Source: Sulfuritalea sp. (GTDB lineage Bacteria > Pseudomonadota > Gammaproteobacteria > Burkholderiales > Rhodocyclaceae). Taken from it: DNA of 51,991 nucleotides. The position numbers and the translations under genes are program-made. Shown one piece after another: positions 7,528 through 48,221 of this stretch (position 1 is the stretch's first letter; every line of letters begins with the position of its first letter). The DNA lies in the NCBI RefSeq assembly GCF_017302275.1, contig NZ_JAFLDR010000028.1:1-51991 (forward strand), given 5' to 3'. The notes under the pieces were generated by a model, which saw only the letters and a program-made list of their open reading frames with translations, was not told the DNA's origin and searched no databases.

Positions 7528-8547
7528 ATGTGTACGACATGCGGCTGCGCCGCGGGCGAAGTGAAAATTGACGGTGACGATCCCCACCACGGGCACGAGC
7601 ATGTGCATGCCGACGGTACGCGCCACAGCCACGGCCATGAGCACGAAGGCGAGCATGGCCCCGACCATCCGCACACCCATGAACACGTCCATGCCGACGG
7701 CACTCGCCACAGTCACGACCACGGCCATGAAGGCGAACATGCCCATGACCACGGCCACCGCTATGCGCCGGCGCATTCCCACGCGGTGGCCCATTCCCAC
7801 GCCCCCGGCGTCAGCCAGAAGCGCATGGTGCAGATCGAGCAGGACATCCTGGCCAAGAACAACGCCTATGCCAAGCAGAACCGCGAGCGCCTGGCCGAGC
7901 GCGGCATTTTCACGCTGAACCTGGTGTCCAGCCCAGGCTCGGGCAAGACCACGCTGCTGTGCAAGACCATCGAGATGCTCAGGGGCAAGGCGTCGGTCGC
8001 CGTGATCGAAGGCGACCAGCAGACCGACCAGGATGCCGAACGCATTCGCGCCACGGGGGCGCCGGCGATCCAGATCAACACCGGCAAGGGCTGCCACCTC
8101 GACGCCCACATGGTCGGCCACGCCATGGAGAAGCTCGACCTGCGCGAGGATTCGCTGCTGATGGTGGAAAACGTCGGCAACCTGGTCTGCCCGGCGGCCT
8201 TCGACCTCGGTGAAGCGCACAAGGTGGTGATCCTCTCGGTCACCGAGGGCGAGGACAAGCCGATCAAGTACCCGGACATGTTCCGCGCTGCGACGCTGAT
8301 GCTGCTCAACAAGTGCGACCTGCTGCCCTATCTCAGCTTCAAGGTCGACGCCGCGATCGAATTCGCCCGCCGCGTCAATCCGGCCATCGAGGTGATCCAG
8401 GTCTCGGCGACCACGGGGCAGGGCATGGACGAGTGGCTGAAGTGGCTGGAAGTCGGCGCCCGCGACACGGCGACGAAGAAGCTGGCGACCGTCGATGCGC
8501 TGAAGCGGCGCGTGGCCGAACTCGAAGCCAGGCTCGGCGCCCGATGA
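7528..8547 (+). CDS. hypB: Nickel-binding GTPase HypB with His-rich N-terminus
   Basis: A 339-aa SIMIBI-class GTPase that drives nickel insertion. It begins MCTTCGC, the high-affinity CxxCGC nickel motif. A histidine-rich nickel-storage stretch follows (about residues 20-93). The GTPase core shows [11 protein letters not shown] (P-loop), [16 protein letters not shown] and NKCDLLP. I chose the ATG at 7528 because it restores the CxxCGC start. The C-terminal tail [10 protein letters not shown] encodes one copy of the interspersed motif described elsewhere. The stop overlaps the hypF start (ATGA). Confidence 0.95.
7597..7764 (+). repeat. Tandem 84-bp duplication in the HypB His-rich region
   Basis: Two adjacent 28-codon units (7597-7680 and 7681-7764) both begin [12 protein letters not shown] and continue with similar HEGEH blocks. 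The synonymous third positions differ (gagcatgtgcat against gaacacgtccat). The duplication is therefore not very recent, or the protein sequence is kept by selection. It doubles the histidine content of the metal-storage region. Confidence 0.85.
8450..8473 (+). repeat. Interspersed motif copy 1 (in hypB)
   Basis: AAGTCGGCGCC followed by CGCGA and CACGGCGA. In the hypB frame it reads VGARDTAT, beyond the GTPase core. This frame is shared with three other genic copies. Confidence 0.7.
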
Positions 8548-9662
8548 CCGAGGCGGTAATTCCGCTGACTGCGCACTTCGCCGGCGCCGTGCCGGTGCTG
8601 GCGGCTGGCGCCTGGTTCAAGAACGCCTTGTGCGGCGTCAAGGGCGGTGAGGCCCGCATGTCGCGCGTGGTTGGCGACCTGAATACTCCGGAAGCCTGCA
8701 TAGCCCATGAACAGGAAGCCGAGACTCTGTTGGTTTGGCTCGGCGAGCCGGTGGCGATTGCCCACGACCTGCATCCCGATTTCCATTCCTCGCGCCATGC
8801 GGCCGGCATTGCGGCGCGGCTAGGCATCACCGCCGTCCCGGTGCAGCACCACCATGCACACATCGCCGCGGTCTGCGCCGAGCATGGTGAATGCGGCCCG
8901 GTGATTGGCCTCGCGCTGGACGGCGTTGGTCTCGGCACCGACAGCACGCCCTGGGGCGGTGAACTGCTGAAGGTCGAGGGCGCGCATTTCGAGCGCCTCG
9001 GCCATCTCGCGCCCCTGGCGCTGCCCGGCGGCGATCGCGCCGCGCGCGAACCCTGGCGAATGGCGGCTGCCGTGCTGCACGACCTCGGTCGCGGCCACGA
9101 GGTGGCGGCGCGCTATCCGGGCGAACCGGGCGTCCCCACGGTGCTGGCGATGCTGGAAAAGAAGCTGAACTGCCCGCGCACCTCGAGCGCCGGCCGCCTG
9201 TTCGACGCCGCTTCCGGCCTGCTCGGGCTTTGCCTGAAAATGGACATGGACGCCGAAGCGGCGATCAAGCTGGAGCAGGCGGCCACGCGGCGCATCGAGG
9301 CCGAAGGCTGGCCGCAAGCGATGGCCGATGGCTGGCGTCTCGACGATGGCGTGCTCGACCTGCGCCCGCTGCTGGGTGAACTCGCCGGCCAGCGCGATGC
9401 GGAGCAGGGCGCGGCCCTGTTCCATGCGACGCTGGTGGCGGCGCTCAGCGAGTGGACGCAGCGTGCCTGTGTATCGGCGGGAATCGAAACCGTGGCGCTT
9501 GGCGGGGGCTGCTTCTTCAACCGTCTGTTGTCGGCCGGCCTGCGTCGCGATTTGGAAGCTCTTGGACTGCGCATGCTGGCGCCGATCAAGCTGGTGCCCG
9601 GTGATGCGGGGCTGGCGCTGGGGCAGGCGTGGGTTGCGCTTCACTCGCTGGAGAGCCGATGA
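8544..9662 (+). CDS. hypF: Short HypF (HypF1-like), Kae1-type carbamoyltransferase domain only
   Basis: A 372-aa protein matching only the C-terminal part of full-length HypF (about 750 aa). The Kae1-like domain is intact: [34 protein letters not shown] and [11 protein letters not shown]. The acylphosphatase, zinc-finger and YrdC-like domains are missing. They are not hidden upstream, because that DNA is hypB. From memory, Ralstonia eutropha also has a short HypF1 of about this size next to hoxX-type genes, so this is probably a functional short form and not a broken gene. The source of the carbamoyl adenylate for cyanide synthesis is then unclear: a full HypF elsewhere, or another supplier. 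The start overlaps the hypB stop. Confidence 0.85.
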
Positions 9663-9690
9663 AAACATTCGCGGATTTGGCGCTGGCGCG

Positions 9691-9870
9691 GGATCTGGAG
9701 GGTGGGGTGTTCTACTCCGCTCATGTCATCCGTCGTCGCCCTTCGGGCTCCTCGCCCCACGGCTTGCCCTGCATGGCAAGCCGGCTGCGGCAGCGCGGAG
9801 CAGTGCTCCGCGAAACCCTGCCTACGCCCTTCTTTACTTCGCTGCGCAGAACACCCCACCCTCCAGATCC
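9691..9870. repeat. 180-bp element bounded by 23-bp perfect inverted repeats
   Basis: Positions 9691-9713 and 9848-9870 are perfect reverse complements over 23 bp, beginning GGATCTGGAGGGTGG. They enclose smaller hairpins: GCCC-TTC-GGGC at 9738-9748 and the two-stem unit at 9760-9812. A short frame overlapping the hypF stop runs through the element ([16 protein letters not shown]) but resembles nothing and is rejected as a gene. No target-site duplication is visible. Possible roles are a nonautonomous mobile element, an mRNA-stabilising structure or an attenuator within the hyp operon. Confidence 0.75.
9760..9812 (+). repeat. Two-hairpin repeat unit, copy A
   Basis: Stem 1 is CGGCTTGCC / GGCAAGCCG (9760-9768 / 9775-9783) with a 6-nt loop. 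The linker contains GGCTGCGGC. Stem 2 is CGCGGAGCA / TGCTCCGCG (9794-9802 / 9804-9812). A second copy on the other strand at 26997-27048 has the same layout with compensatory stem changes. Confidence 0.75.
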
Positions 9871-9915
9871 GGTGACGTTGTTGCTGTGCGACGGTTGCAC
9901 GGCAAGGGCGTATTC

Positions 9916-10019
9916 CGCCAAGGGGGATGGGTGGCCGACGCAGCGAGGTAAAGGGGGAGAGTCGGGCGAAGCCCGGCTCGGAGGACACGAGCAGCGGCGG
10001 TCACCCATCCCCCTTGGCG
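9916..10019. repeat. 104-bp palindromic element before hypC
   Basis: Arms 9916-9936 and 9999-10019 are reverse complements with one mismatch in 21 bp (CGCCAAGGGGGATGGGTG on the left). An inner hairpin GAGTCGGGC-GAA-GCCCGGCTC occupies 9959-9979. The right arm ends 18 bp before the hypC start codon, so in the mRNA this structure would sit at the ribosome-binding region of hypC. Confidence 0.7.
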
Positions 10020-10037
10020 TGCTCTGAGGAAACTAAT

Positions 10038-10271
10038 ATGTGTTTGGCACTTCCAGTAAAAGTAATAGAAGTCGGCGCCAATGACACGGCGATAGTGGAC
10101 CTGGGCGGTGTACGGAAAGAAATTTCACTGGCGTTACTGTCAGACGTGCAGGTTGGCGACTACGTGATCCTGCATGTCGGCTATGCGCTGACCAAACTCG
10201 ATCCTGAAGAGGCCGAGAAGACCCTGGCGCTGTTTGCCGAAATGAACGCGGAAGCCGGCGCGGCCTCGTGA
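10038..10271 (+). CDS. hypC: Hydrogenase maturation chaperone HypC
   Basis: A 77-aa HypC starting MCLALPVKVIEVG, with the essential Cys2. It partners HypD in building and carrying the Fe(CN)2CO unit. Second HypC-family gene of the locus (the other is at 5965). Its place directly before hypD suggests the general HypC. The ATG was chosen to give the obligatory MCL start. Immediately upstream lie the palindromic elements. The stop overlaps the hypD GTG start. Confidence 0.9.
   Translation: MCLALPVKVIEVGANDTAIVDLGGVRKEISLALLSDVQVGDYVILHVGYALTKLDPEEAEKTLALFAEMNAEAGAAS
10069..10092 (+). repeat. Interspersed motif copy 2 (in hypC)
   Basis: AAGTCGGCGCCAATGA then CACGGCGA, read as VGANDTAI in HypC. 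HypC proteins usually tolerate variation in this strand region. Confidence 0.65.
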
Positions 10272-11395: not shown

Positions 11396-12459
11396 TGGGC
11401 GAGGTCAAGAGGGGCTACGTGCGGCCACTGGACTTGAAGCACGGCTGCGTCGACCTGACGCACGGCTCGGGTGGGCGCTCGATGGTGCAGCTAATTTCCG
11501 AGCTCTTCGCCAAACACCTCGGCAACGAATACCTTGGACAGGGCAACGACGGCGCCGTGCTGCCGGCGCCGACTTTCAGGGGGCGCCCCGGACGCCTGGT
11601 GATGTCCACCGATTCGCATGTCGTCTCGCCGCTGTTTTTCCCCGGCGGCGACATCGGCTGCCTCTCGGTGCATGGCACGGTGAACGACGTGGCCGTGATG
11701 GGTGCCACGCCGCTCTACCTGTCGGCCGGATTCATCCTCGAGGAGGGCTTTCCGCTGGGCGACCTGGCGCGCATCGTCGAGTCCATGGCCGCCGCCGCGA
11801 AAGAGGCCGGCATGCCGGTGGTGACCGGCGACACCAAGGTGGTCGAGCGCGGCAAGGGCGACGGCGTCTTCATCACCACCACGGGCGTTGGCGTGCTGCC
11901 CGACGGCCTCGAGCTCGGTGGCAGCCGCGCGCGGCCGGGCGACGTGATCCTGGTTTCCGGCTCGCTGGGCGACCACGGCGTCGCCATCATGAGCAAGCGC
12001 GAGAACCTGACCTTCGAAGCGACCATCGAATCCGACACCGCGGCCCTGAACGGTCTGATCGCCGCGATGTTGGCCACCGGCGCCGGCCTGCGCTGCCTGC
12101 GCGATCCCACGCGCGGCGGGCTGGCGGCGACGCTCAACGAAATCGCCGGGCAGTCGGGCGTCGGCATGATGCTCTACGAGAAGGCGATCCCGGTGAAACC
12201 GGTGGTCGCCGCGGCCTGCGAATTCCTCGGCCTCGACCCGCTCTATGTCGCCAACGAAGGCAAGTTGGTGGTGATCTGCGATGCGCCCGATGCCGAACTG
12301 CTGCTCAACGCCATGCGCGCCCATCCGCTGGGGCGCGACGCCTGCTACATTGGCGACGTGATCGCCGACGACCACCATTTCGTGCAGATGACAACCACGT
12401 TTGGCGGCAAACGCATCGTCGATTGGCTGGCGGGCGACCAGTTGCCCCGCATTTGCTGA
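11395..12459 (+). CDS. hypE: Carbamoyl dehydratase HypE
   Basis: A 354-aa PurM/ThiL-fold ATPase. It dehydrates the carbamoyl group that HypF places on its C-terminal cysteine into thiocyanate, the cyanide donor for the active site. The protein ends in PRIC, so the acceptor cysteine is present. Other motifs: HGSGG, GNDGAVL, STDSHVVSPLFFPGGDIG, DPTRGGLAATLNE. The ATG at 11395 overlaps the hypD stop. An antisense copy of the interspersed motif lies at 11551-11576 in the LPAPTF coding stretch. Confidence 0.95.
   Translation: MGEVKRGYVRPLDLKHGCVDLTHGSGGRSMVQLISELFAKHLGNEYLGQGNDGAVLPAPTFRGRPGRLVMSTDSHVVSPLFFPGGDIGCLSVHGTVNDVAVMGATPLYLSAGFILEEGFPLGDLARIVESMAAAAKEAGMPVVTGDTKVVERGKGDGVFITTTGVGVLPDGLELGGSRARPGDVILVSGSLGDHGVAIMSKRENLTFEATIESDTAALNGLIAAMLATGAGLRCLRDPTRGGLAATLNEIAGQSGVGMMLYEKAIPVKPVVAAACEFLGLDPLYVANEGKLVVICDAPDAELLLNAMRAHPLGRDACYIGDVIADDHHFVQMTTTFGGKRIVDWLAGDQLPRIC
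11551..11576 (-). repeat. Interspersed motif copy 3 (antisense in hypE)
   Basis: On the minus strand: AAAGTCGGCGCCGGC, two bases, CACGGCGCC. The hypE product reads AVLPAPTF here, so the protein meaning differs from the sense-strand copies. Confidence 0.65.
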
Positions 12460-14207: not shown

Positions 14208-15636
<1,429 letters not shown>

Positions 15637-16629: not shown

Positions 16630-18068
16630 CCCGTCGCATTGTCGGCCCCTTCAATCGCGTCGAGGGCGACCTTGAGGTCACGCTCGACATCGACGCCGGG
16701 CAGGTAGCAGCGGCCTATGTCAATTCGCCGCTGTATCGCGGCTTCGAACAAATCCTGCAAGGCAAGCTGCCGGCCGATGCGCTGGTGCTGGTGCCGCGCA
16801 TCTGCGGCATCTGCTCGGTGGCGCAATCGGCCGCCGCCGCGCTGGCGCTGGCCGATGCGGCGGGCATCGCGCCGCCGGCCAACGGCCGCCTGTCCGCAAA
16901 CCTGACGCTGGCGGCGGAAAACATGGCCGACCACTTCACGCATTTCTACCTGTTCTTCATGCCTGACTTCGCCCGTGCGGAATATAAAAGTCGGCGCTGG
17001 CACCACGGCGCCGCGGAGCGCTTCCGCGCCACGGTCGGCACCGCGGTCAACGAAGTGCTGCCGGGGCGCGCCCGCTTCATGCAGGCGATGGGCCTCCTCG
17101 CCGGCAAGTGGCCTCACACGCTGGCGGTGCAGCCGGGCGGCTCGACGCGGCCGCTGCAGAGTTCCGAGGTCTTCCGCCTGCATCGCATCGTCCGCGAATT
17201 CCGCGCCTTCCTCGAAAGCGTCACCTTCGGCGCCCGTCTGGAGGTGATCGCGGCGATTTCGAGCCGTGGCGAACTCGAATCCTGGGCCGCATCCGGTCAG
17301 GGCGGCGACTTGCGAAGCTTCCTCGCGATCGCCGCCGACCTCGACCTCTGGCGACTCGGGCGCGGTACCGACCGCTACATGAGTTACGGTTGCTACGACG
17401 AAGGCGGTCGTCGGTTGTTCCCGGCCGGCGTGTGGCACGGCGCGCCATGTGCGCTGGATGCCGCCCTGATCGACGAGGACACCAGCCACGCCTGGTACGC
17501 CGCCACCGGACAGGCCCAGCCACCAGCCGAGGGCAGCACGCTGCCGGTGGCCGAGAAGGAGGGAGCCTATTCGTGGTGCAAGGCACCGCGCCTGGGCGGC
17601 CAGGTGGTGGAAACCGGCGCACTGGCGCGGCAGATGGTGGCGGGGCATCCGCTGGCGCGCGACATGGTCGCCCGCGACGGCGGCAGCGTCGCCGCCCGCG
17701 TTGTCGCCCGCCTGCTGGAGCTGGCCCTGGTGCTGCCGGCGATGGAACGCTGGCTCGGTGAATTGGTGCCCGGTGAACCCTGGTGCATCACGGCGGGGCT
17801 GGCGGACGAAACCTCCGGCACAGGCCTCGTCGAGGCTGCGCGAGGTTCGCTGGGTCACTGGCTGACGGTGCGCCGCGGCCGCATCCACAATTACCAGATC
17901 ATCGCCCCGACCACCTGGAATTTCTCGCCGCGCGACTCGGGGGGCCAGCCCGGCGCTCTCGAACAGGCGCTGGCCGGCCTGCCGGCCGATCCAGCCGCGC
18001 CGCTGCCGGCGGCCATTCACCACGTGGTTCGCAGCTTCGATCCGTGCATGGTCTGCACGGTGCATTGA
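16626..18068 (+). CDS. hoxC: Regulatory hydrogenase large subunit
   Basis: A 480-aa catalytic-type subunit of the H2 sensor. The active-site motifs are RICGICSVAQS and the very C-terminal DPCMVCTVH. The protein ends exactly at that His, so it lacks the cleavable peptide found in HybC. This is the hallmark of HoxC/HupV, and no protease step is needed. It follows hoxB with a 4-bp overlap. Its stop lies 4 bp from the end of the convergent GGDEF/EAL gene, and no terminator is visible in between. Confidence 0.94.
   Translation: MTRRIVGPFNRVEGDLEVTLDIDAGQVAAAYVNSPLYRGFEQILQGKLPADALVLVPRICGICSVAQSAAAALALADAAGIAPPANGRLSANLTLAAENMADHFTHFYLFFMPDFARAEYKSRRWHHGAAERFRATVGTAVNEVLPGRARFMQAMGLLAGKWPHTLAVQPGGSTRPLQSSEVFRLHRIVREFRAFLESVTFGARLEVIAAISSRGELESWAASGQGGDLRSFLAIAADLDLWRLGRGTDRYMSYGCYDEGGRRLFPAGVWHGAPCALDAALIDEDTSHAWYAATGQAQPPAEGSTLPVAEKEGAYSWCKAPRLGGQVVETGALARQMVAGHPLARDMVARDGGSVAARVVARLLELALVLPAMERWLGELVPGEPWCITAGLADETSGTGLVEAARGSLGHWLTVRRGRIHNYQIIAPTTWNFSPRDSGGQPGALEQALAGLPADPAAPLPAAIHHVVRSFDPCMVCTVH
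16986..17010 (+). repeat. Interspersed motif copy 5 (in hoxC)
   Basis: AAAAGTCGGCGCTGGC, AC, CACGGCG, preceded by AATAT. The AT-rich 5' flank stands out in this GC-rich gene. In the hoxC frame it encodes KSRRWHHGAA. Confidence 0.7.
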
Positions 18069-25911: not shown

Positions 25912-26876
25912 GCGCCGGCATCGATCCGGGCTGCGTGCGCCTGACGCTGGGCAGCGCCCATGGCCGGATCAATGCGGTCGAGGTTTGCAGCGAGCGCCCG
26001 GCGGTGGCGCAGGCTTTGCGCGGGCGAAACGCCGGGCAGGCCGTGAGCCTGGTGCCCCTGCTGTTCGCGCTCTGCGGCAAGGCGCAGGGACACGCCGCGC
26101 GACTCGCGCTGGCCGCGGCGCGCGGCACCGCTTGCGCGGCGCACGTCGATCCCGGTATTGAGCACGAGGCGCTGCGCGAGCACCTGTGGCGCTGGCTGCT
26201 GGACCTGCCGCCGCTGCTGGGCGCGCCGACGATGCAGTTCGAGTTCGTCGAGGCGATGCGCTGGCTGAGCGGCGGGCACCGTGCCGAACTGGCGGCCTTC
26301 CTCGCCGGCCCACGCATCGAGGATCTGGGCTGGCGCCTGCGGGAGATCGAGGACGCCGGCGACGCGAAGCTGCATCTGTTGCCTGGGTTCGATGCGCACG
26401 GGTCGCTGGCGCACGTTCCCCGACTCGACGCCGGCTTTTGCAAGCGTCCGCAATGGCAAGGCGCGGCGGCCGAGACCGGTGCGTTTGCCCGGCGTGGATG
26501 CGGCGACGGCATGGCCGCGGGCGCGCTGGCCATGCGCTGGCTGGCGCGCCTGGCGGAACTGCGCGACTGGGCCGCGGGAAATCAAAAAGTCGGCGCCGGC
26601 GGCACGGCGAGCGCGGTTCCGGTGGAAGCGGGCTGCGGGCGCGCACTGGTGGAAACGGCACGCGGCTTGCTGATGCACGAGATCGTGCTGGAGGGCGAGC
26701 GCATCGCCGACTATTTCATCGTCGCGCCGACCGAATGGAACTTCCATCCGCAGGGCCCGCTGGCCGGCTGGCTGCTCGGGCGCGACGCGAGCGATCGCGA
26801 TGCCTTGGCGGGGTTCGCGGCGCGCGCGGTGGCCGCGCTGGATCCCTGCGTACGTTGGGAAATGGATTGGCTATGA
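25908..26876 (+). CDS. hoxV: HoxV/HupK large-subunit-like scaffold
   Basis: A 322-aa protein related to hydrogenase large subunits but catalytically altered. LVPLLFALCGKAQGHAARLA replaces the RxCGxCxxxH motif with a single CGxAQ. The C-terminal end reads LDPCVRWEM instead of DPCxxCxxH. HupK/HoxV is proposed to carry Fe(CN)2CO to the large subunit under aerobic conditions. AGCGRALVETARGLLMHEIVLEGERIADYFIVAPTEWNF matches the large-subunit C-terminal fold. It overlaps hoxJ by 4 bp. The C-terminal region includes the KVGAGGTAS copy of the interspersed motif. Confidence 0.82.
   Translation: MSAGIDPGCVRLTLGSAHGRINAVEVCSERPAVAQALRGRNAGQAVSLVPLLFALCGKAQGHAARLALAAARGTACAAHVDPGIEHEALREHLWRWLLDLPPLLGAPTMQFEFVEAMRWLSGGHRAELAAFLAGPRIEDLGWRLREIEDAGDAKLHLLPGFDAHGSLAHVPRLDAGFCKRPQWQGAAAETGAFARRGCGDGMAAGALAMRWLARLAELRDWAAGNQKVGAGGTASAVPVEAGCGRALVETARGLLMHEIVLEGERIADYFIVAPTEWNFHPQGPLAGWLLGRDASDRDALAGFAARAVAALDPCVRWEMDWL
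26584..26610 (+). repeat. Interspersed motif copy 6 (in hoxV)
   Basis: AAAAAGTCGGCGCCGGC, GG, CACGGCGA, again after an AT-rich flank (AATC). Reads KVGAGGTAS, a glycine-rich insert between two conserved helices. Confidence 0.7.
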
Positions 26877-28726: not shown

Positions 28727-29046
28727 GGCGTGGTCGCCACGGTCGGCGGCTAAATCGACATTCTATCCATGACGCCGGGCGGCTACGCCGGCGATCCGGG
28801 TTGCGAGCTTTGGCCGGGTGAGGTCGCAGCCGGCATTTTCATGGATAACCGGATCGTCTGTCCCTGACCGAGCTCGAATACTCGCCGGCACCGTTCCCGT
28901 GGAAGGCTTCGTGATCGCCGGAAACCCCGAATCCGCAGACGCTTCGACCACGCACCGACTCAGTGTCATTGCCGGGCTCGCGATCGTCTCGCTCGCCGTG
29001 CCGGACGCTGCCTGACGTGCCGCGCCGGCAATAGTCGGCGCTGGCG
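28727..29046. other. Intergenic stretch without a recognisable gene
   Basis: About 320 bp between the FAD oxidoreductase start and the yhhN end. Frames on both strands give Arg/Ser-rich shadow peptides with no family likeness. It contains interspersed motif copy 7 at its right end. The promoter for the FAD gene must lie at the left end, but no clear box was seen. Confidence 0.6.
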
Positions 29047-29054
29047 CTACGGCA
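29031..29054 (+). repeat. Interspersed motif copy 7 (intergenic)
   Basis: ATAGTCGGCGCTGGC, GC, then TACGGCA. An intergenic copy immediately downstream of the minus-strand yhhN gene. Confidence 0.65.
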
Positions 29055-29706
29055 CTCTGGCGTTCCGATCCACGCCGCGCCGGATCGCAGCCGCGGCAAT
29101 CAGCGCCTGGGCCATCCAGTAAGTGACGATGATGACGAAGGCTGCGGCGGGAAGCGATTGGTGGAAGCGGTGGATGCCGATCAGGAAATCCGACAGCCCG
29201 AACAGCAGCGCTCCGGCAAGGGCACTCCAGCGTGCGAGGATATCGCCATCCGGCTCCAGCGCACAGGCGGCGGCGCGCCAGATCATGGCGCCGATCGCCA
29301 CCACGTAGATCGCCAGCGGCACGGCAAGCGCGCCGGCGCCTGGCAGCATCAGGCCCAAGCCGATGGCGCAGAACAGCGTCACCGGAACCAGCAGCGCCAG
29401 TGCCGGTTCGCGGTTCCAGCGCAGGAAGGCGGTGATGTACAGGCCATGGCCGATGGCGAAGGCGATCATGCCGGGCAGGAAGGCGTTGGGCAGCGCGAGG
29501 CAGGTATCGCCGACGGCGCCGAAGAACAGGCCCCAGGCGATCAGGCGGCCGGCGCGTGGTTCGCCCGATTGCCACACCGCGAGCCCGAGGACCAGCACCG
29601 GCCATGGCTTGGTCAGCAGTTTGAGCCAGAACATGTCGAGCGCAAGGCCGACCAGATACAGGCAAGCCGCCAGCGTGCCGACGACGACGAGCAGGACGGC
29701 TTTCAT
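29047..29706 (-). CDS. YhhN family membrane protein
   Basis: A 219-aa inner-membrane protein with about eight hydrophobic helices. The motifs GLFFGAVGDTCLALPNAF, FAIGHGLYITAF and SDFLIGIHRF fit the YhhN/TMEM86 family. Animal members are lysoplasmalogenases; the bacterial role is largely undefined. It lies 16 bp downstream of the DUF2189 gene on the same strand, so it is probably co-transcribed with it. The 3' end touches interspersed motif copy 7. Confidence 0.85.
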   Translation of the reverse strand: MKAVLLVVVGTLAACLYLVGLALDMFWLKLLTKPWPVLVLGLAVWQSGEPRAGRLIAWGLFFGAVGDTCLALPNAFLPGMIAFAIGHGLYITAFLRWNREPALALLVPVTLFCAIGLGLMLPGAGALAVPLAIYVVAIGAMIWRAAACALEPDGDILARWSALAGALLFGLSDFLIGIHRFHQSLPAAAFVIIVTYWMAQALIAAAAIRRGVDRNARVP

Positions 29707-30487: not shown

Positions 30488-31287
30488 GCGGCGATGAAGG
30501 AACGCAGGGCATCGAGCATGGCGTCGGGCTGCTCCGAGATGACGTGGCCGGCGCCTTCGAGGCTGACCGTGCGCACGTCACGCAGCGCGGCGGCCAGCCT
30601 GGCCGCCGCCTTGGGATGGGTCATCATGTCCCGGCTGCCGCTGATGATCAGGACCGGGCAGGCAACCTCCGCCGCTGCCGCCATGCCGTGCCCATAGGCA
30701 TTGCAGGCCGCCAGGTCGTTGTGCAGCACGCCGGGCTTCTGGCGCTCGGCCAGGCGCAGCGCCGCGCCGAAATGCCAGATTCCCGGCACGGCGTAACCGC
30801 CCATGGCGGCACGCGGTGAATGCGACCAGGTGTTGATCATGGAAATCGCCCTGGGTTCGTCGTTCTTCGCCGCGTCGAGCAGGGCCTCCGACACCGGCAT
30901 CGGTACCGCGGTGCCGAACAGCGCGATGCGCGCGATGCGCGCCGGGTGGCGTGCGGCGCATTCGAGGGCGGCCAGCGAGCCCATGCTGTGGCCGACCAGC
31001 GCCACGGTTTTCACCGTGTCGCCAGCGCCGACTTCTTCGAGCAGCAATTCGATCCAGTCCGCGATGTCCTCGATCGACGGTAGCGGCTTGCCCTTGCTGC
31101 GGCCGTGGCCGGGCAGGTCGACGGCCAGCACGCCGAAGCCATGGTGGGCGAACCAGCGGCTTTGCAGCAGCCAGACGCTATGGTCGTTCTGCGCGCCGTG
31201 GATGAAGACGACGGTCGGCAGTGATGCGTCGAACGCCTTGCCGCCGGTGTAGGCGTAGGCCGGCTGGCCGTTGATCTCGAGTTCCAT
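30484..31287 (-). CDS. Alpha/beta hydrolase
   Basis: A 267-aa alpha/beta-hydrolase-fold enzyme. The nucleophile elbow is GHSMGS (Ser). The acid is in ISGSRDMMT (Asp) and the catalytic His in LEGAGHVISEQP. The oxyanion motif is VFIHGAQND. Esterase or lactonase activity is likely and the substrate is unknown. The EVGAGDTVKT stretch just before the nucleophile strand is encoded by an interspersed motif copy. The gene is coupled to the DUF2189 gene downstream. Confidence 0.88.
   Translation of the reverse strand: MELEINGQPAYAYTGGKAFDASLPTVVFIHGAQNDHSVWLLQSRWFAHHGFGVLAVDLPGHGRSKGKPLPSIEDIADWIELLLEEVGAGDTVKTVALVGHSMGSLAALECAARHPARIARIALFGTAVPMPVSEALLDAAKNDEPRAISMINTWSHSPRAAMGGYAVPGIWHFGAALRLAERQKPGVLHNDLAACNAYGHGMAAAAEVACPVLIISGSRDMMTHPKAAARLAAALRDVRTVSLEGAGHVISEQPDAMLDALRSFIAA
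31011..31037 (-). repeat. Interspersed motif copy 8 (sense in hydrolase gene)
   Basis: Minus strand: AAGAAGTCGGCGCTGGC, GA, CACGGTGA; read as EVGAGDTVK. It shares the reading frame of the hypB, hypC and hoxV copies. Confidence 0.65.
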
Positions 31288-35971: not shown

Positions 35972-35998
35972 TTTCGCCGTGCCGCCACCGCCGACTTT
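35972..35998 (-). repeat. Interspersed motif copy 9 (intergenic, island)
   Basis: Minus strand: AAAGTCGGCGGTGGC, GG, CACGGCGAAA. In inverted orientation to copy 10, 487 bp away. Confidence 0.65.
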
Positions 35999-36139
35999 CA
36001 CTACCAACTGACCACCGGCAACGCCGGCAAGCAAGCGCGCCCGTCGGCGCGGAAGCGGCCCACACCACCCAGCGCGCAGCGCCCGAATAACCCAACGCCG
36101 CGATGGCGACGCCGATATAGCCTTTGTCCGGGTTGGGGC

Positions 36140-36156
36140 GCAAGACATAACCGACC
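36140..36156 (+). repeat. 17-bp direct repeat, first copy
   Basis: GCAAGACATAACCGACC, identical to 36769-36785. The first copy forms the left edge of the attC-like palindrome. Confidence 0.7.
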
Positions 36157-36247
36157 ATTACCCGAACCCGCAGGGCGCGGCAGCGGCAGGCCACCAAGCG
36201 CAGCCTCGCGCAGCGACTGGCCTGCTTTGGGTAATGCGCGGTTATGT
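36145..36247. repeat. 103-nt attC-like imperfect palindrome
   Basis: Nested complementary boxes: ACATAACC (36145-36152) with GGTTATGT (36240-36247); ATTACCC (36157-36163) with GGGTAAT (36229-36235); GCAGGCCA (36186-36193) with TGGCCTGC (36218-36225). The two outer pairs are separated by 4-nt unpaired spacers, and one arm has an extra 19 nt. This R-spacer-L layout resembles integron attC sites. However, ACATAAC/GTTATGT deviates from RYYYAAC/GTTRRRY, and no integron integrase gene is in the window. Confidence 0.5.
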
Positions 36248-36484
36248 TGAATCGCTTGCGATTTACCCCTGCCCGGCGACGTGCAGTTGAGCGAAGCGAA
36301 CTGACTGGTTCTGCATGGCCGACACAACCCGGCATCGCAGCCGTCCGCTTCAACGCAGTTAAGCGGCTGCGGGCCACGAAGTGCGAACGTCGAGCAGCCC
36401 CCCAGCGTAGCTGCCGAAGCCGTGGGCAGTTTTATCGCCGACGGCGCAGGCAGCGGGCAGTACGGGACAAGGCCAGCCAAGGGC

Positions 36485-36510
36485 AAAAGTCGGCGCTGGC
36501 GGGACGGCGA
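36485..36510 (+). repeat. Interspersed motif copy 10 (intergenic, island)
   Basis: AAAAGTCGGCGCTGGC, GG, GACGGCGA; followed by TAAAGAG. Confidence 0.7.
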
Positions 36511-36768
36511 TAAAGAGGGCGACAAAGCCGTGGCGCGCAGCGCGACGGCGCGGTGAAACACGCGACACGGTAGCCGCCTGCAAGCCGCAAGCCGGCGAGC
36601 AGACTTTCCGCTGGCCGGCGCAGTGGCGCAGCGGTGGCGGTGCCGGAGGGGACGGCGGCAATCGGAGGCACGAAGCCAGGGCGCGGCTTCATGCGCGCTG
36701 GCGGGCGTCCAGTCCGCGACGCGGTAGTCCGGCGGGCTGCTTGCGGCCCCCTGATGACCGCATGGGAT

Positions 36769-36785
36769 GCAAGACATAACCGACC
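36769..36785 (+). repeat. 17-bp direct repeat, second copy
   Basis: GCAAGACATAACCGACC again, followed by CTTA where the first copy has ATTA. No GGTTATGT partner follows, so this copy is a half-element. It lies 85 bp before the small gene at 36870. Confidence 0.7.
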
Positions 36786-37183: not shown

Positions 37184-38914
37184 TTAAACCAGCAATCCGT
37201 CGTCGGTCACCACATTGATCGACCTCGTTCCGATCTTCAGTCCATGAACGCCATCGAGGAACGCCTTGCCAGACACATGCACGCCATCGACGGCGATGCC
37301 CGTCATGCTCCCCATGTCGTATATCCAGACATCGCCGGGAAAATTGACGATCACCGCATGCCGACGACTGATGCCATTCTGGCTGAACGGTATGTCGTTC
37401 GAGGCGTAGCGGCCAAGCGTAACGAGTGGCGTCTGAAAGGTATAGGTATAGCCATCACCACAATCGAAGACCAGCGTATGGGGCTTGCGGCGTTTCTCAG
37501 GAGTTCCGAATCGGTAATCCTGAAACAGCAGTTTTGATTTCAGCGGCGGCCGGTCGTCGGGCGTCCAACTCGCGGGGGATTCCGTGGCGATGTCAAGATT
37601 CATCCGCATGAAAGGATTGGTCAGCTTGTCCTTTTCATGATCGGCCAAGAAGCCGGGCGAGCATTCCTCCAACAACAGCCGGCACAGGAATTGGTTATTC
37701 TCAAAACAGTCGTTGGCCACCTTCTGCGCCATGATTGCGTCCGCCAACCGCGCGCCAAGCTCGTAGCGGCTAGTTTCGTAGAAGCACTGGATCAGCAGGT
37801 TGCTTGCCTCGTAATCGGCCGCCTCCCGTTGCAAGTGGTCGGTCAGCATGGAAATCGCTTGGGCATGATTGCCTTCTTCCAAGGCGATCCAGCCGAGTTC
37901 CTTCTGTAGATTGACGCGCGGACTGATGCGAACCGCCTCGGAGAAAAAATTCTTGGCATACGCCGTGCGCCGCATCAACAGTTCGAGGCGCCCGCCAACC
38001 ACCAGCGCCGAAATGCAGTCGGGTGCCAGCAGCAGGGCATGCTCGATGTAGCTCTTCGCGGTCACCCATTTCCTGCGCGCGATCATGTTGCCGGCTTTCT
38101 CGGCAAGGCCATGCGCTTTCAGTCTGTTGCGATCAATGATGTACGGGACGTGACGCGATTCAATGGCCTGCGAGAAATCCGCCATCGACTGGAATCGCTG
38201 CTCCGGCGTGGGATGAGTGGCCTTCAGCAGGATCTCCTGAATCCAGCGGTCTAGGGTTGTTGGGATGAACTCGTGCAGGATTTTTGCCCGCAACAATTCT
38301 TTGTCGGGAATGTCGCGCAAGGGATTGCGGCCGAGCAGCAGTTCCAGCATGGTGACAGCCAGGGCATAGACATCGATGCGGGCGTCGTCGCTGGACGCTT
38401 CGCCCAGTGAAAGTTCCGGCGCCATATAGGCTCGCGTGCCCCAATTGCGGTTGGCCACGCCGAAATCGGCAACCTTCAGCCGGCCGTCTTCGGTAAGCAA
38501 CAGGTTTTGCGGCTTGATGTCGTGATGGACGATACTATGCCGATGAACTTCGGCCAGGGTATCGGTCAGGGTCTTGCCCCAGGCGAACACCTTGTCCGGT
38601 GCCAGCGCGCGCCTGCGCGCGAACGCATCGAGGCTGCCGCCCGCGCAATACTCCATGACCAGAAACAGATTCTCGTCATCTTGAAAATGGTGCAGGAACT
38701 TGACGACGTGCGGATGATCGAGCGAGGACAAATGGTGCATTTCCTCGATCAGCAACTCGGCATTGCCAAGCGAATCGCTTCGGAGCTGTTTGATCGCGAC
38801 CTGCCGCCCGGCAATCAACACGTCCTCCGCGAGCCATACTCGCCCGAAACCGCCTTCGCCAAGCGACCGGACAACCTGATACTTGTCGTCGAGAGGAAGA
38901 AGTGGAAGCTGCAC
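37184..38914 (-). CDS. Ser/Thr protein kinase with helical-repeat and FHA domains
   Basis: A 576-aa cytoplasmic Hanks-type kinase. The P-loop is GEGGFGRV (residues 19-26). The lysine is in VAIKQL (Lys42). The catalytic loop is HHDIKPQN (130-137), with HRD changed to HHD but Asp132, Lys134 and Asn137 present. DFG lies at 150-152 and APE follows. Residues about 275-420 look like helical TPR-type repeats (TAKSYIEHALLLAPDCISAL). The C-terminus is an FHA phosphothreonine-binding domain (LGRYASNDIPFSQNGISRRHAVI). There is no membrane segment. It lies at the end of a minus-strand run beginning with the restriction-modification genes. A role in defence or stress signalling is inferred. Confidence 0.88.
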   Translation of the reverse strand: MQLPLLPLDDKYQVVRSLGEGGFGRVWLAEDVLIAGRQVAIKQLRSDSLGNAELLIEEMHHLSSLDHPHVVKFLHHFQDDENLFLVMEYCAGGSLDAFARRRALAPDKVFAWGKTLTDTLAEVHRHSIVHHDIKPQNLLLTEDGRLKVADFGVANRNWGTRAYMAPELSLGEASSDDARIDVYALAVTMLELLLGRNPLRDIPDKELLRAKILHEFIPTTLDRWIQEILLKATHPTPEQRFQSMADFSQAIESRHVPYIIDRNRLKAHGLAEKAGNMIARRKWVTAKSYIEHALLLAPDCISALVVGGRLELLMRRTAYAKNFFSEAVRISPRVNLQKELGWIALEEGNHAQAISMLTDHLQREAADYEASNLLIQCFYETSRYELGARLADAIMAQKVANDCFENNQFLCRLLLEECSPGFLADHEKDKLTNPFMRMNLDIATESPASWTPDDRPPLKSKLLFQDYRFGTPEKRRKPHTLVFDCGDGYTYTFQTPLVTLGRYASNDIPFSQNGISRRHAVIVNFPGDVWIYDMGSMTGIAVDGVHVSGKAFLDGVHGLKIGTRSINVVTDDGLLV

Positions 38915-38921
38915 GGCGCGG

Positions 38922-39626
38922 CTAATCCGAGCGGATGAAGAAATGCATGGCGTCCTTGGTCAGCAGCTTGTGCCCCTGCGGACAACGCCAGACGTTATAG
39001 GCCCAGCCCGATGTCACCATGTTCGTCGGCCCGGTATCGAGGGAAATCCGGTCCTGCGGAATGACCTCTCGGCATTTGCCGCAGGTGACCTGCCCGAGCG
39101 CGCGATTCATCATGCCGACGGCGACATTGAGGAACCAGCCATTCCACGGCGCAGGAACTTCAACGGGATCGAGTCGGGCGGAATCGCGCCCGCGCAGCCA
39201 GTCGAGTATTCCCGGATAGCGGCCATGCTCCGTGGCCGGCAATTCGGCCAGGCGCTTTTCCATGATCGCCAGCACTTCAGCGGCATCAAAAACGAACCTG
39301 CTGTCGCACTTCCCGGATTCGTCGTGCTCAGGCGCGTAGCGAATGAAGGCGCCGCAAGGTGGCAGATTGGCCTCCAGCCGATCCAACTCACGCTCGGCGT
39401 CGGCGCGACCTTCGTTCCAGATGTTTGGCGCGAACGTCGGATGAAGCAGCCCATCGAGTCTCAGCAGAAACAGCGGCCAGAGGATCACATTGAACCGGAA
39501 CGTAGAGCCGACATTGCCGAATCGCCGGTCGTACTTGTCCAGCCGGTAGCGGATATGCCAGCCCATGCGCAGCGCCACCAGCGCGGCACCGGCAAGGTAG
39601 AGATACAGGAATGTCCAGGCGGTCAT
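38922..39626 (-). CDS. Hypothetical membrane protein with C-terminal CxxC motif
   Basis: A 234-aa protein, taking ATG 39626 (MTAWTFLYLYLAGAALVALR). A longer TTG-initiated frame to 39677 would read through interspersed motif copy 11 and is less likely. Two hydrophobic segments are seen near residues 3-20 and 47-62 (FNVILWPLFLLRL). The cytoplasmic part ends with CGKC and a later RCPQGHKLL, a possible zinc site. No known family is recognised. It lies 7 bp upstream of the kinase gene, which implies co-translation and a possible role as kinase anchor or substrate. Confidence 0.65.
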   Translation of the reverse strand: MTAWTFLYLYLAGAALVALRMGWHIRYRLDKYDRRFGNVGSTFRFNVILWPLFLLRLDGLLHPTFAPNIWNEGRADAERELDRLEANLPPCGAFIRYAPEHDESGKCDSRFVFDAAEVLAIMEKRLAELPATEHGRYPGILDWLRGRDSARLDPVEVPAPWNGWFLNVAVGMMNRALGQVTCGKCREVIPQDRISLDTGPTNMVTSGWAYNVWRCPQGHKLLTKDAMHFFIRSD

Positions 39627-39648
39627 GGCGTCAGTCTTTTCTGGTTGG

Positions 39649-39673
39649 ATAGTCGGCGCTCGCGGCACGGCGA
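39649..39673 (+). repeat. Interspersed motif copy 11 (intergenic, island)
   Basis: ATAGTCGGCGCTCGC, GG, CACGGCGA. It sits between two minus-strand genes, just upstream of the preferred start at 39626. Confidence 0.65.
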
Positions 39674-39732
39674 TCAAGTCAGGTTCTGCCGCAACGGAAT
39701 CATGATCCCAGCCGGCAGGCTCATGGGGTGAG

Positions 39733-44339: not shown

Positions 44340-44376
44340 TCCGGTTCAAGTCGAAAAACGAATTCGGGAAAACTTT

Positions 44377-44402
44377 CGCACCGTATTGCCAGCGCCGACT
44401 TT
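44377..44402 (-). repeat. Interspersed motif copy 12 (intergenic, island)
   Basis: Minus strand: AAAGTCGGCGCTGGC, AA, TACGGTGCG. It lies in the 195-bp gap after the HTH regulator gene; no other feature was seen in that gap. Confidence 0.65.
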
Positions 44403-44534
44403 CCAATTGCTGAGAGGCGGACTGTCTGGCCATTGAGCGCCTATCGATTGGGCAGCGTATCGAGATGCTTGTTGAATGTTCATCGGCTCGGCGGGCATGA
44501 TCGCCCCACGGCCGAAATACGGTAACGTACTGCA

Positions 44535-46085
44535 ATGTCTGATGCAGTCAAACCAAGCTTTCGCGAATACTGGCCTTACTTCAACGTTACCGACGACGGC
44601 TTTCTCTGGTGGCCGCTGAAAGACGCTATTCGTCTGGCAGCCGGGTATCAGCTTTACGTCGACGATGATCAGGCGCTGGAACCGGAGTTGCGCGCCACCA
44701 GCAAACGGGTTCTGGCCAATGAGCGCACCTTGATTGGCGCCTTTGGAGACGCCCGGTTGAGTATTGCGAAGCCGATCACGTTCGAGCGCGACGGCTTTCG
44801 CTATGTGGATGCCGCCGGCTTCCTGACCTGGCTTTCGCAGTACATCAGCCTGAAGCAACCCAAGATCGAGTTCCCCGACGCCCTCGCCGACGAAGTGAGA
44901 ATCGCGTTGGCGAAGGCTGCGGCTGAGCGACCGCACAAGACCACGAGCGGGCCGTTCGAGAGCCTGACGCTTGCGCTGGAACCGTGGTTCGAGCAGGCGC
45001 TGGTTGAACTCCCCGACGCGCTGCGCTACCGCGTGGATCGGGAAATCCTGGTGCCGTGGGACTCGCTTGCACCTGCGCAACGGCGCGCTGCTGCGCTCCA
45101 GCGGGACTATCGGCACGATCCGGCAATGGAGCAGGATCGCCGGTCCTGGTGGGAATTTTTGGTGCGGAAACGTACCGTCAGAGCGCAGATCGCTACATGG
45201 GAAGCGACCGCTACCCCTGCGGCAAATGATCTGGCGCTGAAAGAGGGTCGGCTGAAAGAAATGCGGGAGGAACTAGCCCGTATGGATGAAAGGCAGCGGC
45301 AGGCATCCGGGAGCTATTCCCCGGCGCGAAAGCCGTCCGCCGCCGCGAATGAGGCACCCGCCATGGGCGCGGACTATATCGCCTACCCCAAGGCCATGGC
45401 GATGCTGGCCGGCCAACTGGATGCGACACCGGAAGAGCTGGCGGCCTGGGTTTGGATGGGGCCGAAGGATAGCGGGATCGCAGCCTACCTGAACGCCAAT
45501 GAACTCGATCCGCCGCCGCGATTCCACTATGACCTCGGCAACGGCGACGATTTTGACTACGTGTCGCCGCTGATGGCCTGCTGGTTCAACGCGGAAGACA
45601 TTGCCCAATTCGAGCCGACGGATCGCTACATCACAGGCCAAACGCTGATAGAACGTTGGAGCCGGCAACCGGGTTTGCAGGCAGAAGCCTTCATTCGCGC
45701 CAAGATTGCCGAATCGAGGTTGCTGGATGCGCACCCGATATTCGGAAGCACTCAAGGCACCTGCCCGGAGCAATCCGGTTTTCCGCCCCTGGCAAGCGGG
45801 CTGTTCCTGCTGGCACATGTTGAGGCGATTGAGGCAGAAGACTTTGCAAACGTCGAGGAAGGTAAGTCTAGAAAAGGTCAGAGCACTGTTCCGCCCGCTG
45901 CTCCAAAATCCAAAGGGCATCTGAATCATGACTTGCAGATGCAGGAACGAGCAAACCAGATCGCTGCTCAGAAAATGGAAGAGACAAAGCGGCCAGTCAC
46001 ACGGGATAAGGTGGCCAAGCTCTTGGCTGCCGAGCTTGGGATGACTATTGACACAGTCCTCCGCAGGATTCGTAAGCAGTGGTAA
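44535..46085 (+). CDS. Hypothetical protein with C-terminal HTH-like segment (516 aa)
   Basis: A long soluble protein. The N-terminus is rich in aromatic residues (YWPYFNVTDDGFLWWPLKDA). A central charged linker (about residues 225-275; KEGRLKEMREELARMDERQR) looks coiled. The C-terminus ends VTRDKVAKLLAAELGMTIDTVLRRIRKQW, which resembles a helix-turn-helix. I do not recognise a characterised family. Its place between a regulator and an AlpA/recombinase module suggests a mobile-element accessory gene. The codon pattern looks coding, and no frameshift is visible. The 191 bp downstream hold nothing recognised. Confidence 0.65.
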   Translation: MSDAVKPSFREYWPYFNVTDDGFLWWPLKDAIRLAAGYQLYVDDDQALEPELRATSKRVLANERTLIGAFGDARLSIAKPITFERDGFRYVDAAGFLTWLSQYISLKQPKIEFPDALADEVRIALAKAAAERPHKTTSGPFESLTLALEPWFEQALVELPDALRYRVDREILVPWDSLAPAQRRAAALQRDYRHDPAMEQDRRSWWEFLVRKRTVRAQIATWEATATPAANDLALKEGRLKEMREELARMDERQRQASGSYSPARKPSAAANEAPAMGADYIAYPKAMAMLAGQLDATPEELAAWVWMGPKDSGIAAYLNANELDPPPRFHYDLGNGDDFDYVSPLMACWFNAEDIAQFEPTDRYITGQTLIERWSRQPGLQAEAFIRAKIAESRLLDAHPIFGSTQGTCPEQSGFPPLASGLFLLAHVEAIEAEDFANVEEGKSRKGQSTVPPAAPKSKGHLNHDLQMQERANQIAAQKMEETKRPVTRDKVAKLLAAELGMTIDTVLRRIRKQW

Positions 46086-46531: not shown

Positions 46532-46551
46532 GTTTCGGGACGCGCTGATCC

Positions 46552-47022
46552 ATGGGCAAGCGCCACCCAAACCCACGCCTCGCCAAAATCCATCGCAATT
46601 ACACCGTGGACGAGGTCGCCAGCCTGTATTCCATCCACAGGAACACGGTGCGCGAGTGGATCAAGCGGGGGCTCCCGACAAGTGATGATCGACGACCGAT
46701 GCTGATCCTCGGCCGGGATCTGCTTGCCTTCCTTCAGGCACGGCGGATGAGGAACAAGCGCCCATGCCAGGCAGGCGAAATCTACTGCGTCCGCTGCCGA
46801 GTGCCGAGAGCGCCGGCCGGGAACATGGCCGACTACTCGGCCATTACCGAGACGACAGGGAACCTGGTCGCGATCTGTCCGGATTGCCAGACGATCATTT
46901 ACCGGCGTGTCAGCCTGGCCAGACTGGACCAGATTTGCGGCGATTTGGACATCGCGTTTCCGCAGGCACTGCGACACATAGACGATAGCGCCAACCTCTC
47001 CGTGAACCGTGACTTCAGATAG
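46552..47022 (+). CDS. HTH protein with CxxC pairs, recombinase accessory
   Basis: A 156-aa protein. The N-terminal helix-turn-helix reads YTVDEVASLYSIHRNTVREWIKRGLP (about residues 15-42). The C-terminal half holds two CxxC pairs, YCVRC and ICPDC, probably a zinc knuckle. It is located between the AlpA gene (20 bp upstream) and the recombinase gene. It is likely a DNA-binding partner of the recombinase, by position only. Confidence 0.7.
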   Translation: MGKRHPNPRLAKIHRNYTVDEVASLYSIHRNTVREWIKRGLPTSDDRRPMLILGRDLLAFLQARRMRNKRPCQAGEIYCVRCRVPRAPAGNMADYSAITETTGNLVAICPDCQTIIYRRVSLARLDQICGDLDIAFPQALRHIDDSANLSVNRDFR

Positions 47023-47076
47023 GGAGCCGCGGACCATGACAATTCACAACGACGACGACGACGGGAAGTTCAGGCC

Positions 47077-48195
47077 ATGACGACGCACAACCCCGACAAC
47101 GAGCGAATCAAGCGCAGGTACTTTGCCTATTTGAAGGAAGCCCGACGCCATAGCGAACCGACGGTCGACGCGGTAGCGAAAGCGCTGGCCCGCTTCGAGG
47201 CCGATAGCAAATACCGCGACTTCAGGAAGTTTCATTCCGAACTGGCGATTGCGTTCAAGAAGCATTTGGCCGACCAGCGGAACCAGCAGACCGGCGAGAA
47301 GCTGAGCAAGGCAACCCTGCATGCCACCCTTGCGCATTTGAAAGCCTTCTTCCACTGGCTCGCCGGGCAACCCGGCTACAAGTCACGCCTTCAGTATTCC
47401 GACGCCGACTATTTCAACCTGTCGGAAAAGGATGTGCGCATTGCCACGGCAAGGCGGGAACAAACCGGGCCGACGCTGGACCAGGTGAAACACGTCATCG
47501 CCATGATGCCGGGCGGCAGCGAGATCGAGCGGCGGAACCGTGCGCTGATCGCGTTCACGATTGCGACCGGCGCACGCGACAGCGCCATCGCGTCATTGAA
47601 ACTGAAGCACGTCGATCTGGCTGCTGGCTGCGTCAATCAGGATGCGCGCGAGGTGCGGACAAAGTTCAGCAAGACATTCACGACCTACTTTTTCCCGGTC
47701 GGAGACGAAATTCTGCGAATCGTCGAGGAATGGGTGACGTTTCTGCGGGAGGAAATGCTTTGGGGCAATGACGATCCATTGTTTCCGGCGACACGTATTG
47801 CCTTGGGGGAATCGCGCCAGTTCGAGGTGGTCGGCCTGGAACGGTCCCATTGGAGCAGCGCCGCCAGAATCCGCGAGATATTCCGCAGCGCCTTCAATAG
47901 CGCTGGCCTGCCTTACTTCAACCCGCACAGCTTTCGGAACACGCTTGTCCGGCTTGGCCAGTCGGTCTGCAAGACGCCTGAAGAGTTCAAGGCATGGAGC
48001 CAGAACCTGGGGCATGAAAAGGTGCTGACGACTTTCTTGAGTTACGGGCAGGTCGAGAGCGCGCGCCAAGGCGCGATCATTCGTGGGTTGGCAACGCCAA
48101 AGCTCGCCGCGCAGACGGACATGAGAGTGCTCGCGAAGGCGCTGATGCGTGAATTGCGCGAGTCCAGCGCGGACGTGCATAGATTCGTTGAGTAG
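47077..48195 (+). CDS. Tyrosine recombinase/integrase
   Basis: A 372-aa tyrosine recombinase. An N-terminal SAM-like core-binding domain (about 1-105) is followed by the catalytic domain. The catalytic residues are Arg in TGARDSAI, HxxR in NPHSFRNTL, His in LGHEKVL and the nucleophile Tyr in FLSYGQV. It belongs to the AlpA-linked module. The window holds a second integrase of the P4 type convergent to it (30 bp gap), so two elements may be nested, or this one may perform another recombination. Confidence 0.88.
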   Translation: MTTHNPDNERIKRRYFAYLKEARRHSEPTVDAVAKALARFEADSKYRDFRKFHSELAIAFKKHLADQRNQQTGEKLSKATLHATLAHLKAFFHWLAGQPGYKSRLQYSDADYFNLSEKDVRIATARREQTGPTLDQVKHVIAMMPGGSEIERRNRALIAFTIATGARDSAIASLKLKHVDLAAGCVNQDAREVRTKFSKTFTTYFFPVGDEILRIVEEWVTFLREEMLWGNDDPLFPATRIALGESRQFEVVGLERSHWSSAARIREIFRSAFNSAGLPYFNPHSFRNTLVRLGQSVCKTPEEFKAWSQNLGHEKVLTTFLSYGQVESARQGAIIRGLATPKLAAQTDMRVLAKALMRELRESSADVHRFVE

Positions 48196-48196
48196 C

Positions 48197-48221
48197 AAGA
48201 GTCGGCGCTGGCAACACGGCG
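48197..48221 (+). repeat. Interspersed motif copy 13 (between the integrase genes)
   Basis: AAGAGTCGGCGCTGGC, AA, CACGGCG. Extended by CCGACT it forms a 9-bp hairpin (AGTCGGCGC / GCGCCGACT, 48200-48227) between two convergent genes, so this copy could act as a terminator stem, although no T-run follows. Confidence 0.7.

Follow-up and report, generated by a model that had tools for sequence, protein, structure and literature searches.

Uptake labels of other families and the motif of Sulfuritalea

Self-DNA uptake labels are known in Neisseriaceae and Pasteurellaceae only, according to a 2025 paper (PMC12616744), and the known uptake motifs given there have 9-12 nt. In Neisseriaceae, the DNA uptake sequence (DUS), which is read by the minor pilin ComP, is spread genome-wide in genes and spacers, stands in permissive places and forms clade dialects (PMC3630211). 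Its density is one per 0.4-1.1 kb, reduced density marks islands, and conjugative elements have been found by atypical DUS distribution (PMC7371117). In Pasteurellaceae, the uptake signal sequence (USS), which occurs as AAGTGCGGT and ACAAGCGGT, has a strong consensus, conserved positions beyond the core and subclade variants, and its copies in H. influenzae were shown by Redfield et al. to be substitutions and not insertions (PMC1626085). Here we describe a motif with the consensus RARAGTCGGCGCYGGCGRNACGGCGA, which is interspersed in a window of 51,991 nt (the whole stretch of DNA analysed, contig NZ_JAFLDR010000028.1) from Sulfuritalea sp., a member of Rhodocyclaceae, and in the rest of its genome. 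The motif has genomic hallmarks of DNA uptake sequences and is rather likely to be a self-DNA label of that kind; membership of the class is not claimed, as length and density differ. In a library that lacks most subscription papers, no paper was found that connects uptake sequences with Rhodocyclaceae or with Accumulibacter or that contains the core letters of the motif, and none about it was noticed among the titles listed.

The Rhodocyclaceae motif resembles DUS in its genome-wide spread over genes and spacers, its clade dialects, its permissive places and its reduced density in an island-like region. It differs in its length of ~26 bp against 9-12, in being roughly 4-12 times sparser and in lacking stop codons in all six reading frames of the consensus, whereas all DUS dialects but one hold UGA in one frame (PMC3630211). 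Close inverted pairs are rare, with one opposite-strand pair closer than 100 bp among 130 adjacent pairs, and no sequence likeness to DUS was seen. A strong consensus, coding origin by substitution, conserved positions beyond a core and subclade variants are shared with USS, but the 3' AT-rich segments of USS are missing, the motif is GC-rich save for its 5' A tract, it is sparser and no sequence likeness to USS was seen either. The cyanobacterial HIP1 is a short palindrome that is highly over-represented in and between genes, a placement that it shares with the long and asymmetric motif of Rhodocyclaceae.

Abundance and shape of the motif

The genome of the window (G000) has 4.41 Mb in 88 contigs, and expectation was taken from the pattern read backwards and, for 10-mers, from an order-3 Markov model. 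The 13-mer AGTCGGCGCTGGC has 346 exact copies genome-wide (164 plus, 182 minus) against one for the reversed pattern, the wider pattern AGTCGGCGCTGGCNNNACGGC has 754 copies at up to two mismatches against nine, and the 10-mer AGTCGGCGCT is observed 84 times in 652 kb where 5.0 are expected. A preliminary description of the window, made from its letters, had judged the 13-mer too frequent for chance and had proposed these genome-wide counts, which lie far over the controls; the copies are found genome-wide and in relatives and not in the window alone.

In the window, the 13-mer has seven exact copies at the places already described, five on the plus strand (15264, 16989, 29033, 36488 and 48200) and two on the minus strand (31021-31033 and 44388-44400). 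At up to two mismatches there are 17 copies against 5.06 expected from 100 dinucleotide shuffles, of which the largest gave 12. Scanned with a weight matrix derived from 852 kb of its genome, the window has 13 copies of the motif at 14 bits or more, nine plus and four minus, with scores of 25.6-39.1 bits. These figures agree with the earlier count, and all six inexact copies listed then are real, with coordinates correct to within 12 bases.

In the 852-kb sample, the consensus has ~26 bp, ~30 bits and sharp edges, and the columns outside it hold at most 0.15 bits. The sample has 142 sites over the threshold against seven in the reversed control, and 129 against none at 20 bits or more, so real sites are nearly separate from the background. 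The consensus holds three similar blocks, TCGGCG, CTGGCG and ACGGCG. An AT-rich 5' flank had been supposed, but the A-rich part on that side is four bases long and no AT-rich sequence is seen outside it. A hairpin was considered and rejected; as judged by eye, the pairing GTCG...CGAC of the consensus is weak and is lost in the dialects.

Distribution and dialects

The 13-mer is present in 31 of 31 genomes of the same genus, the window's own included, with 12-438 copies each; six genomes from the family's other genera have 0-6 copies, and 24 from other families have 0-5. The strict pattern under-counted genomes with dialects, and the following cross-genome counts come from the wider motif at up to two mismatches. 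Motif-rich genomes, with 272-778 copies, are 37 of the 297 sampled from Rhodocyclaceae. They belong to the window's own genus (g1, 12/13) and to five further genera, g32 (1/1), g43 (10/11), g62 (1/1), g70 (4/4) and g88 (9/9), which together have 25 of 26 genomes motif-rich. Three genomes are intermediate, namely G098 (g69) with 99 copies, G017 (g1) with 59 and G076 (g47) with 45, and the remaining 257 have at most 26, among them G293 (g43) with one. Of 300 genomes sampled from the order, 291 belong to other families and hold 0-10 copies, which is the level of the reversed control. The count in relatives, which had been proposed as a check, places the motif in one part of Rhodocyclaceae, to which it is restricted. 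G017 and G293, which have few copies although their relatives are motif-rich, may have lost the label.

In the motif-free genomes G034 and G071, 120 kb of each were scanned at 18 bits or more without a site, and 11 of 11 hypE-centred regions from genomes that lack the motif have none at 14 bits. A scan with the exact 26-mer, which may leave out the window's own genome, finds at least 116 stretches. The titles among the matches listed include Sulfuritalea, Sulfurisoma (including the isolate S. sediminicola BSN1), Rhodocyclaceae, Rhodocyclales, Betaproteobacteria, Burkholderiaceae, Sulfurimicrobium, Rugosibacter and one metagenome-assembled genome (MAG) titled Gammaproteobacteria. This MAG, JAHJEO01, carries the motif in six stretches (L076, L084, L089, L100, L115 and L122), and its title is probably wrong. 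Sulfuritalea hydrogenivorans, the cultured type of its genus, is a probable further carrier. A comparison with named loci was discarded, since carriage of the motif had been the basis of their choice.

The motif differs between genomes at fixed positions and shows clade-specific dialects at the level of the genus, as seen in matrices of seven motif-rich genomes, all seeded from the G000 matrix and made from 24-51 sites each (142 in G000). The genome G132 has A at 78% (ACGGCA) where the six others show G at 58-93%, and the G of AGTC is less fixed in it (47%); the exact pattern finds three copies in it against 535 with mismatches. In G061, T stands at 54% in TCGGtGC, and in ACGcC the C reaches 42% in G099 and 27% in G165. 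Five sites of G017 gave no usable matrix.

Some minor observations concern genomes poor in the motif. G395, of another family of the order, has nine copies at up to two mismatches (two of them exact) against one in the control, a slight excess that is perhaps due to transferred DNA. In motif-poor relatives the few strict copies are clustered (G109:C104, G135:C1 at 1.46-1.50 Mb and G076:C1 at 560-585 kb), as if brought in on transferred DNA. The motif-free G034 (L236-L240, L207) has a dense interspersed repeat of its own around CTGTGGGAGCGGCGG, with ~43 copies in 120 kb, which we take to be REP-like from its look, and in 120 kb of G071 (L241-L245, L205) several 10-mers recur 23-50 times, which are repeat families other than the motif.

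Placement in genes and spacers

Genes were called by a simple home-made coding-potential script, which misses some genes. By these calls, 90 of 139 sites are intragenic, 43 intergenic and six at gene ends, where random places give 82%, 15% and 3%; the intergenic excess (14.6% expected) has a P of about 9e-7. Intragenic sites lie on the strand of the gene in 54 cases and on the opposite strand in 36 (P 0.07), and the frame that reads KVGAGDTA is dominant, with 44 of the 90. Neighbours on both sides are available for 48 of the 49 sites that are not intragenic, and 19 of these lie in convergent gaps against 18% expected (P about 4e-4) and seven in divergent gaps against 24% expected.

Origin of the coding copies

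The preliminary description had suggested a comparison with orthologous genes of relatives at the place of the motif. The comparisons start from 327 sites, taken from stretches of 11 motif-rich genomes, and in 384 of them the target lacks the motif; this target lies in G017 in 26 cases, in a motif-free genus in 261 and in another motif-rich genome in 97. They are not independent, as genes such as hypE recur. The target is gap-free in 147 of the 384. Targets shorter by 8-9 residues, which is the size of an in-frame insertion of the whole unit, are two, and targets longer by nine are six. The coding copies arose by substitution and not by insertion; Redfield et al. drew the same conclusion for USS from a test of this type (PMC1626085). 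The motif-encoded residues of hypB, hypC and the hoxC-like gene align without gaps with most motif-free homologues whose alignment spans the site. Among motif-rich genomes, the motif is kept at the orthologous place in 94 of 191 comparisons.

The motif as a probable uptake-signal-like label

The motif is a real, clade-wide and probably uptake-signal-like label, and we read it as a third, independent and unusually long one beside those of Neisseriaceae and Pasteurellaceae. From its genomic pattern we infer an uptake function, a DNA-uptake receptor as its reader and bacteria that would be transforming. A sequence-specific receptor, for which a type IV minor pilin or a DNA-binding protein of the periplasm is most likely, would prefer fragments with RARAGTCGGCGCYGGCGRNACGGCGA in natural transformation. 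Fragments that match better would enter and recombine more often, and matches would then accumulate through point substitutions at places where gene products and regulation can bear them.

The motif is all but missing from one conjugative-element-like region. Contig C1 of the window's genome is free of sites from 60.3 to 202.0 kb, and its 70-205 kb part has one site where 28 are expected. Ten large proteins of this region were scanned; they include three conjugation proteins (TraC, TrwB/TraG-like and TraI_2) and a phage-type integrase, besides the Wadjet protein JetA, a DNA methylase, an SbcC-like ATPase, a helicase, an exchanger and a carboxylase-domain protein. With a GC content of 0.56-0.60 the region is poorer in GC than the rest of the sample, which has mostly 0.63-0.67. 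By its look, C1 ~60-202 kb (L006-L013) is an integrative conjugative element.

For the questions of how self-DNA labels originate and by what means a receptor recognises them, a third and unrelated lineage offers a comparative system: it has dialects of its own, two near-losses (G017 and G293) and sister genera free of the motif, and a receptor could be sought by matching its variation to the dialects. If the uptake label is true, these environmental bacteria would be populations that exchange genes and could perhaps be made transformable, and the label would help to spot recently acquired islands in their genomes. A more far-reaching version, which we hold tentatively and consider doubtful, is that Rhodocyclaceae would be a third family with independently evolved self-DNA uptake, with a motif more than twice the known length, mostly no canonical ComEA and perhaps a receptor, unrelated to ComP, that reads the motif as three YGGCG-type modules; if true, it would mean that the reader is new and that the route of entry perhaps is too.

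Several observations weigh against an uptake label. The motif, of ~26 bp, is longer than the 9-12 nt of known uptake motifs, and its density of about one site per 5-6 kb is low beside the one per 0.4-1.1 kb of DUS. The depletion in mobile DNA was examined in a single element (n=1). Gaps are present in 237 of the 384 orthologue comparisons, mostly of 1-4 residues (the target shorter in 139 and longer in 98), so many sites lie in length-variable loops, as do the motif-coded residues of hypE and the hoxA-like gene. Synonymous identity in the motif segment of hypE is above average among seven carriers (0.757), a modest effect, as 29 of 348 windows are as high, and low among ten non-carriers (0.448, with 331 of 345 windows as high); this pattern, obtained with G153, G099, G177 and G063 left out, is suggestive only.

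The competence proteins stand on both sides, as ComEC and minor pilins are present but not confined to carriers. The surface receptors of uptake sequences are ComP and, by proposal, ComN. The ComEC domain is present in 37 of 37 genomes tested, motif-free relatives among them, and in 10 of 14 control genomes, and it is kept in G017 and G293, which have few motif copies. A pilin of the ComP_DUS family is present in 30 of 30 genomes, motif-free relatives alike, and GspH/FimT-type pilins, present in 18 of 20, usually cluster beside it in carriers and non-carriers alike. ComEA is above the curated cut-off in six of 35 genomes, two of 19 motif-rich ones (G199 and G117) and four of 12 motif-free ones (G071, G164, G115 and G034), and in none of four poor or intermediate genomes nor in the genome of the window. 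That most carriers are without it is the weightiest argument against an uptake label, unless it hints that the periplasm holds a different receptor. The ComP_DUS pilin, the GspH/FimT pilin, ComEC and ComEA were rejected as markers of genomes with the motif, as none separates the groups, and no receptor stood out among the pilin, ComEC and ComEA families compared.

Alternative explanations

Among the four options of the preliminary description (an uptake signal, a Chi- or KOPS-like polar motif, a protein-binding site and a spreading mini-element), the uptake signal fits best, and the polar motif and, for the coding copies, the mini-element fall away. The motif could instead be bound inside the cell by an abundant protein that would act in chromosome organisation, segregation or nucleoid structure and whose sites would be kept by selection; this is an unlikely explanation that still deserves weight. 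The sharp consensus of ~30 bits and the wide distribution suit it, the dialects suggest a reader that co-evolves, and the lack of a discriminating uptake receptor, with ComEA in just two of 19 motif-rich genomes, points the same way. Against it stand three features, none of them decisive: the absence of a link with GC skew in six genomes, the ~140 kb stretch without sites and a near-random spacing of sites, with a coefficient of variation of 0.87 against 0.97 at random, as even as which 8% of the shuffles are.

A label for another transfer route, such as a gene transfer agent, vesicles or generalised transduction, would follow the same population dynamics as uptake sequences and leave the same genomic signature. 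Two findings agree with it: ComEA is lacking from most of the motif-rich genomes in which it was sought, and 32 stretches of viral contigs in IMG/VR (L159-L190, a few contigs twice) carry the motif, be it in phage genes or in host flanks. We consider this route improbable.

A Chi-like recombination and repair signal, or a KOPS-like signal that orients FtsK, is very improbable. The motif is over-represented genome-wide and asymmetric, as such a signal would be, and single contigs are at times lopsided (C2, with five plus and 19 minus). Chi and KOPS have ~5-8 bp, far below 30 bits. Whole-genome strand totals are near equal (379/375 and 355/354) but say nothing on polarity, because two replichores would cancel. 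Counted by GC skew in sampled stretches of six genomes, sites on the G-rich and C-rich strands are 57/50 in G000, 17/18 in G132, 13/15 in G002, 13/12 in G061, 17/12 in G091 and 17/14 in G165, and in sampled stretches of the first half of a single contig the plus and minus sites are 11/11 in G002 and 11/14 in G132. These counts show no replication polarity, and a polar motif is rejected on them.

A spreading mini-element of ~25 bp, of the MITE or REP-like kind and mobilised by a transposase, would explain the strong consensus and the clear separation of copies from the background, but it is refuted for the coding copies, because just two of 384 targets are shorter by 8-9 residues (against the six longer by nine and the 147 without gaps) and the HoxC-like, HypB and HypC sites align gap-free with most motif-free homologues whose alignment spans them, and it is scarcely credible.

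Copies in the window and neighbouring features

Copies of the window had been placed in hypB, hypC, hypE, hoxA, hoxC, hoxV and a hydrolase gene. The first three families are confirmed. The copy at 8448..8473 (+, 28.7 bits) encodes the residues EVGARDTA of HypB (TIGR00073), the copy at 10067..10092 (+, 25.6 bits) encodes EVGANDTA of a HypC family protein (TIGR00074), and the copy at 11552..11577 (-, 33.7 bits) lies antisense in hypE (TIGR02124), where it corresponds to AVLPAPTF. The position in hypE is common to six of nine other regions from motif-bearing genomes (L191, L192, L193, L194, L198 and L199).

The three hox genes are a sigma-54 response-regulator gene and two genes like those of hydrogenase large subunits; the names HoxC and HoxV are those of the preliminary description. 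The copy at 15261..15286 (+, 32.8 bits) encodes KESALAGRR in a sigma-54 response-regulator gene (HoxA-like), which matches Sigma54_activat and Response_reg. The copy at 16986..17011 (+, 37.3 bits) encodes YKSRRWHHG in a nickel hydrogenase large-subunit-like gene (HoxC-like), whose best NCBIfam match, NF033181, is under its cut-off. The copy at 26585..26610 (+, 37.2 bits) encodes QKVGAGGTA in a hydrogenase-large-subunit-like gene (HoxV-like), for which PF00374 is above its cut-off. The hydrolase proves to be an alpha/beta hydrolase (30484-31287, minus; PF00561), with the copy at 31011..31036 (-, 34.5 bits) on its sense strand.

The other six copies lie at gene ends, beside genes or over open reading frames (ORFs) without a family match. 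The copy at 29030..29055 (+, 34.5 bits) overlaps the 3' end of a minus-strand YhhN-family gene (29047-29706, PF07947), and the one at 35974..35999 (-, 32.7 bits) is just past the 3' end of the minus-strand ORF 36001-36777, which has no family at E 1e-5. ORFs without a family match are overlapped at 36485..36510 (+, 39.1 bits, the top-scoring copy of the window), at 39648..39673 (+, 30.5 bits; ORF 38883-39731) and at 44378..44403 (-, 33.8 bits; ORF 44346-45116). The last copy, at 48197..48222 (+, 35.1 bits), is directly 3' of a tyrosine-recombinase-like gene (47077-48195, PF00589), and its GTCGGCGC can pair, as judged by eye, with GCGCCGAC in its own flank.

Two other kinds of repeat are found near the hyp copies. 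Just upstream of hypC, at 9691-9870 and 9916-10019, there are two strong inverted repeats with arms of 30/29 nt that are 90% complementary, and at 7594-7761 a head-to-tail pair of 84-bp units, 74% alike, encodes a histidine-rich part of HypB.

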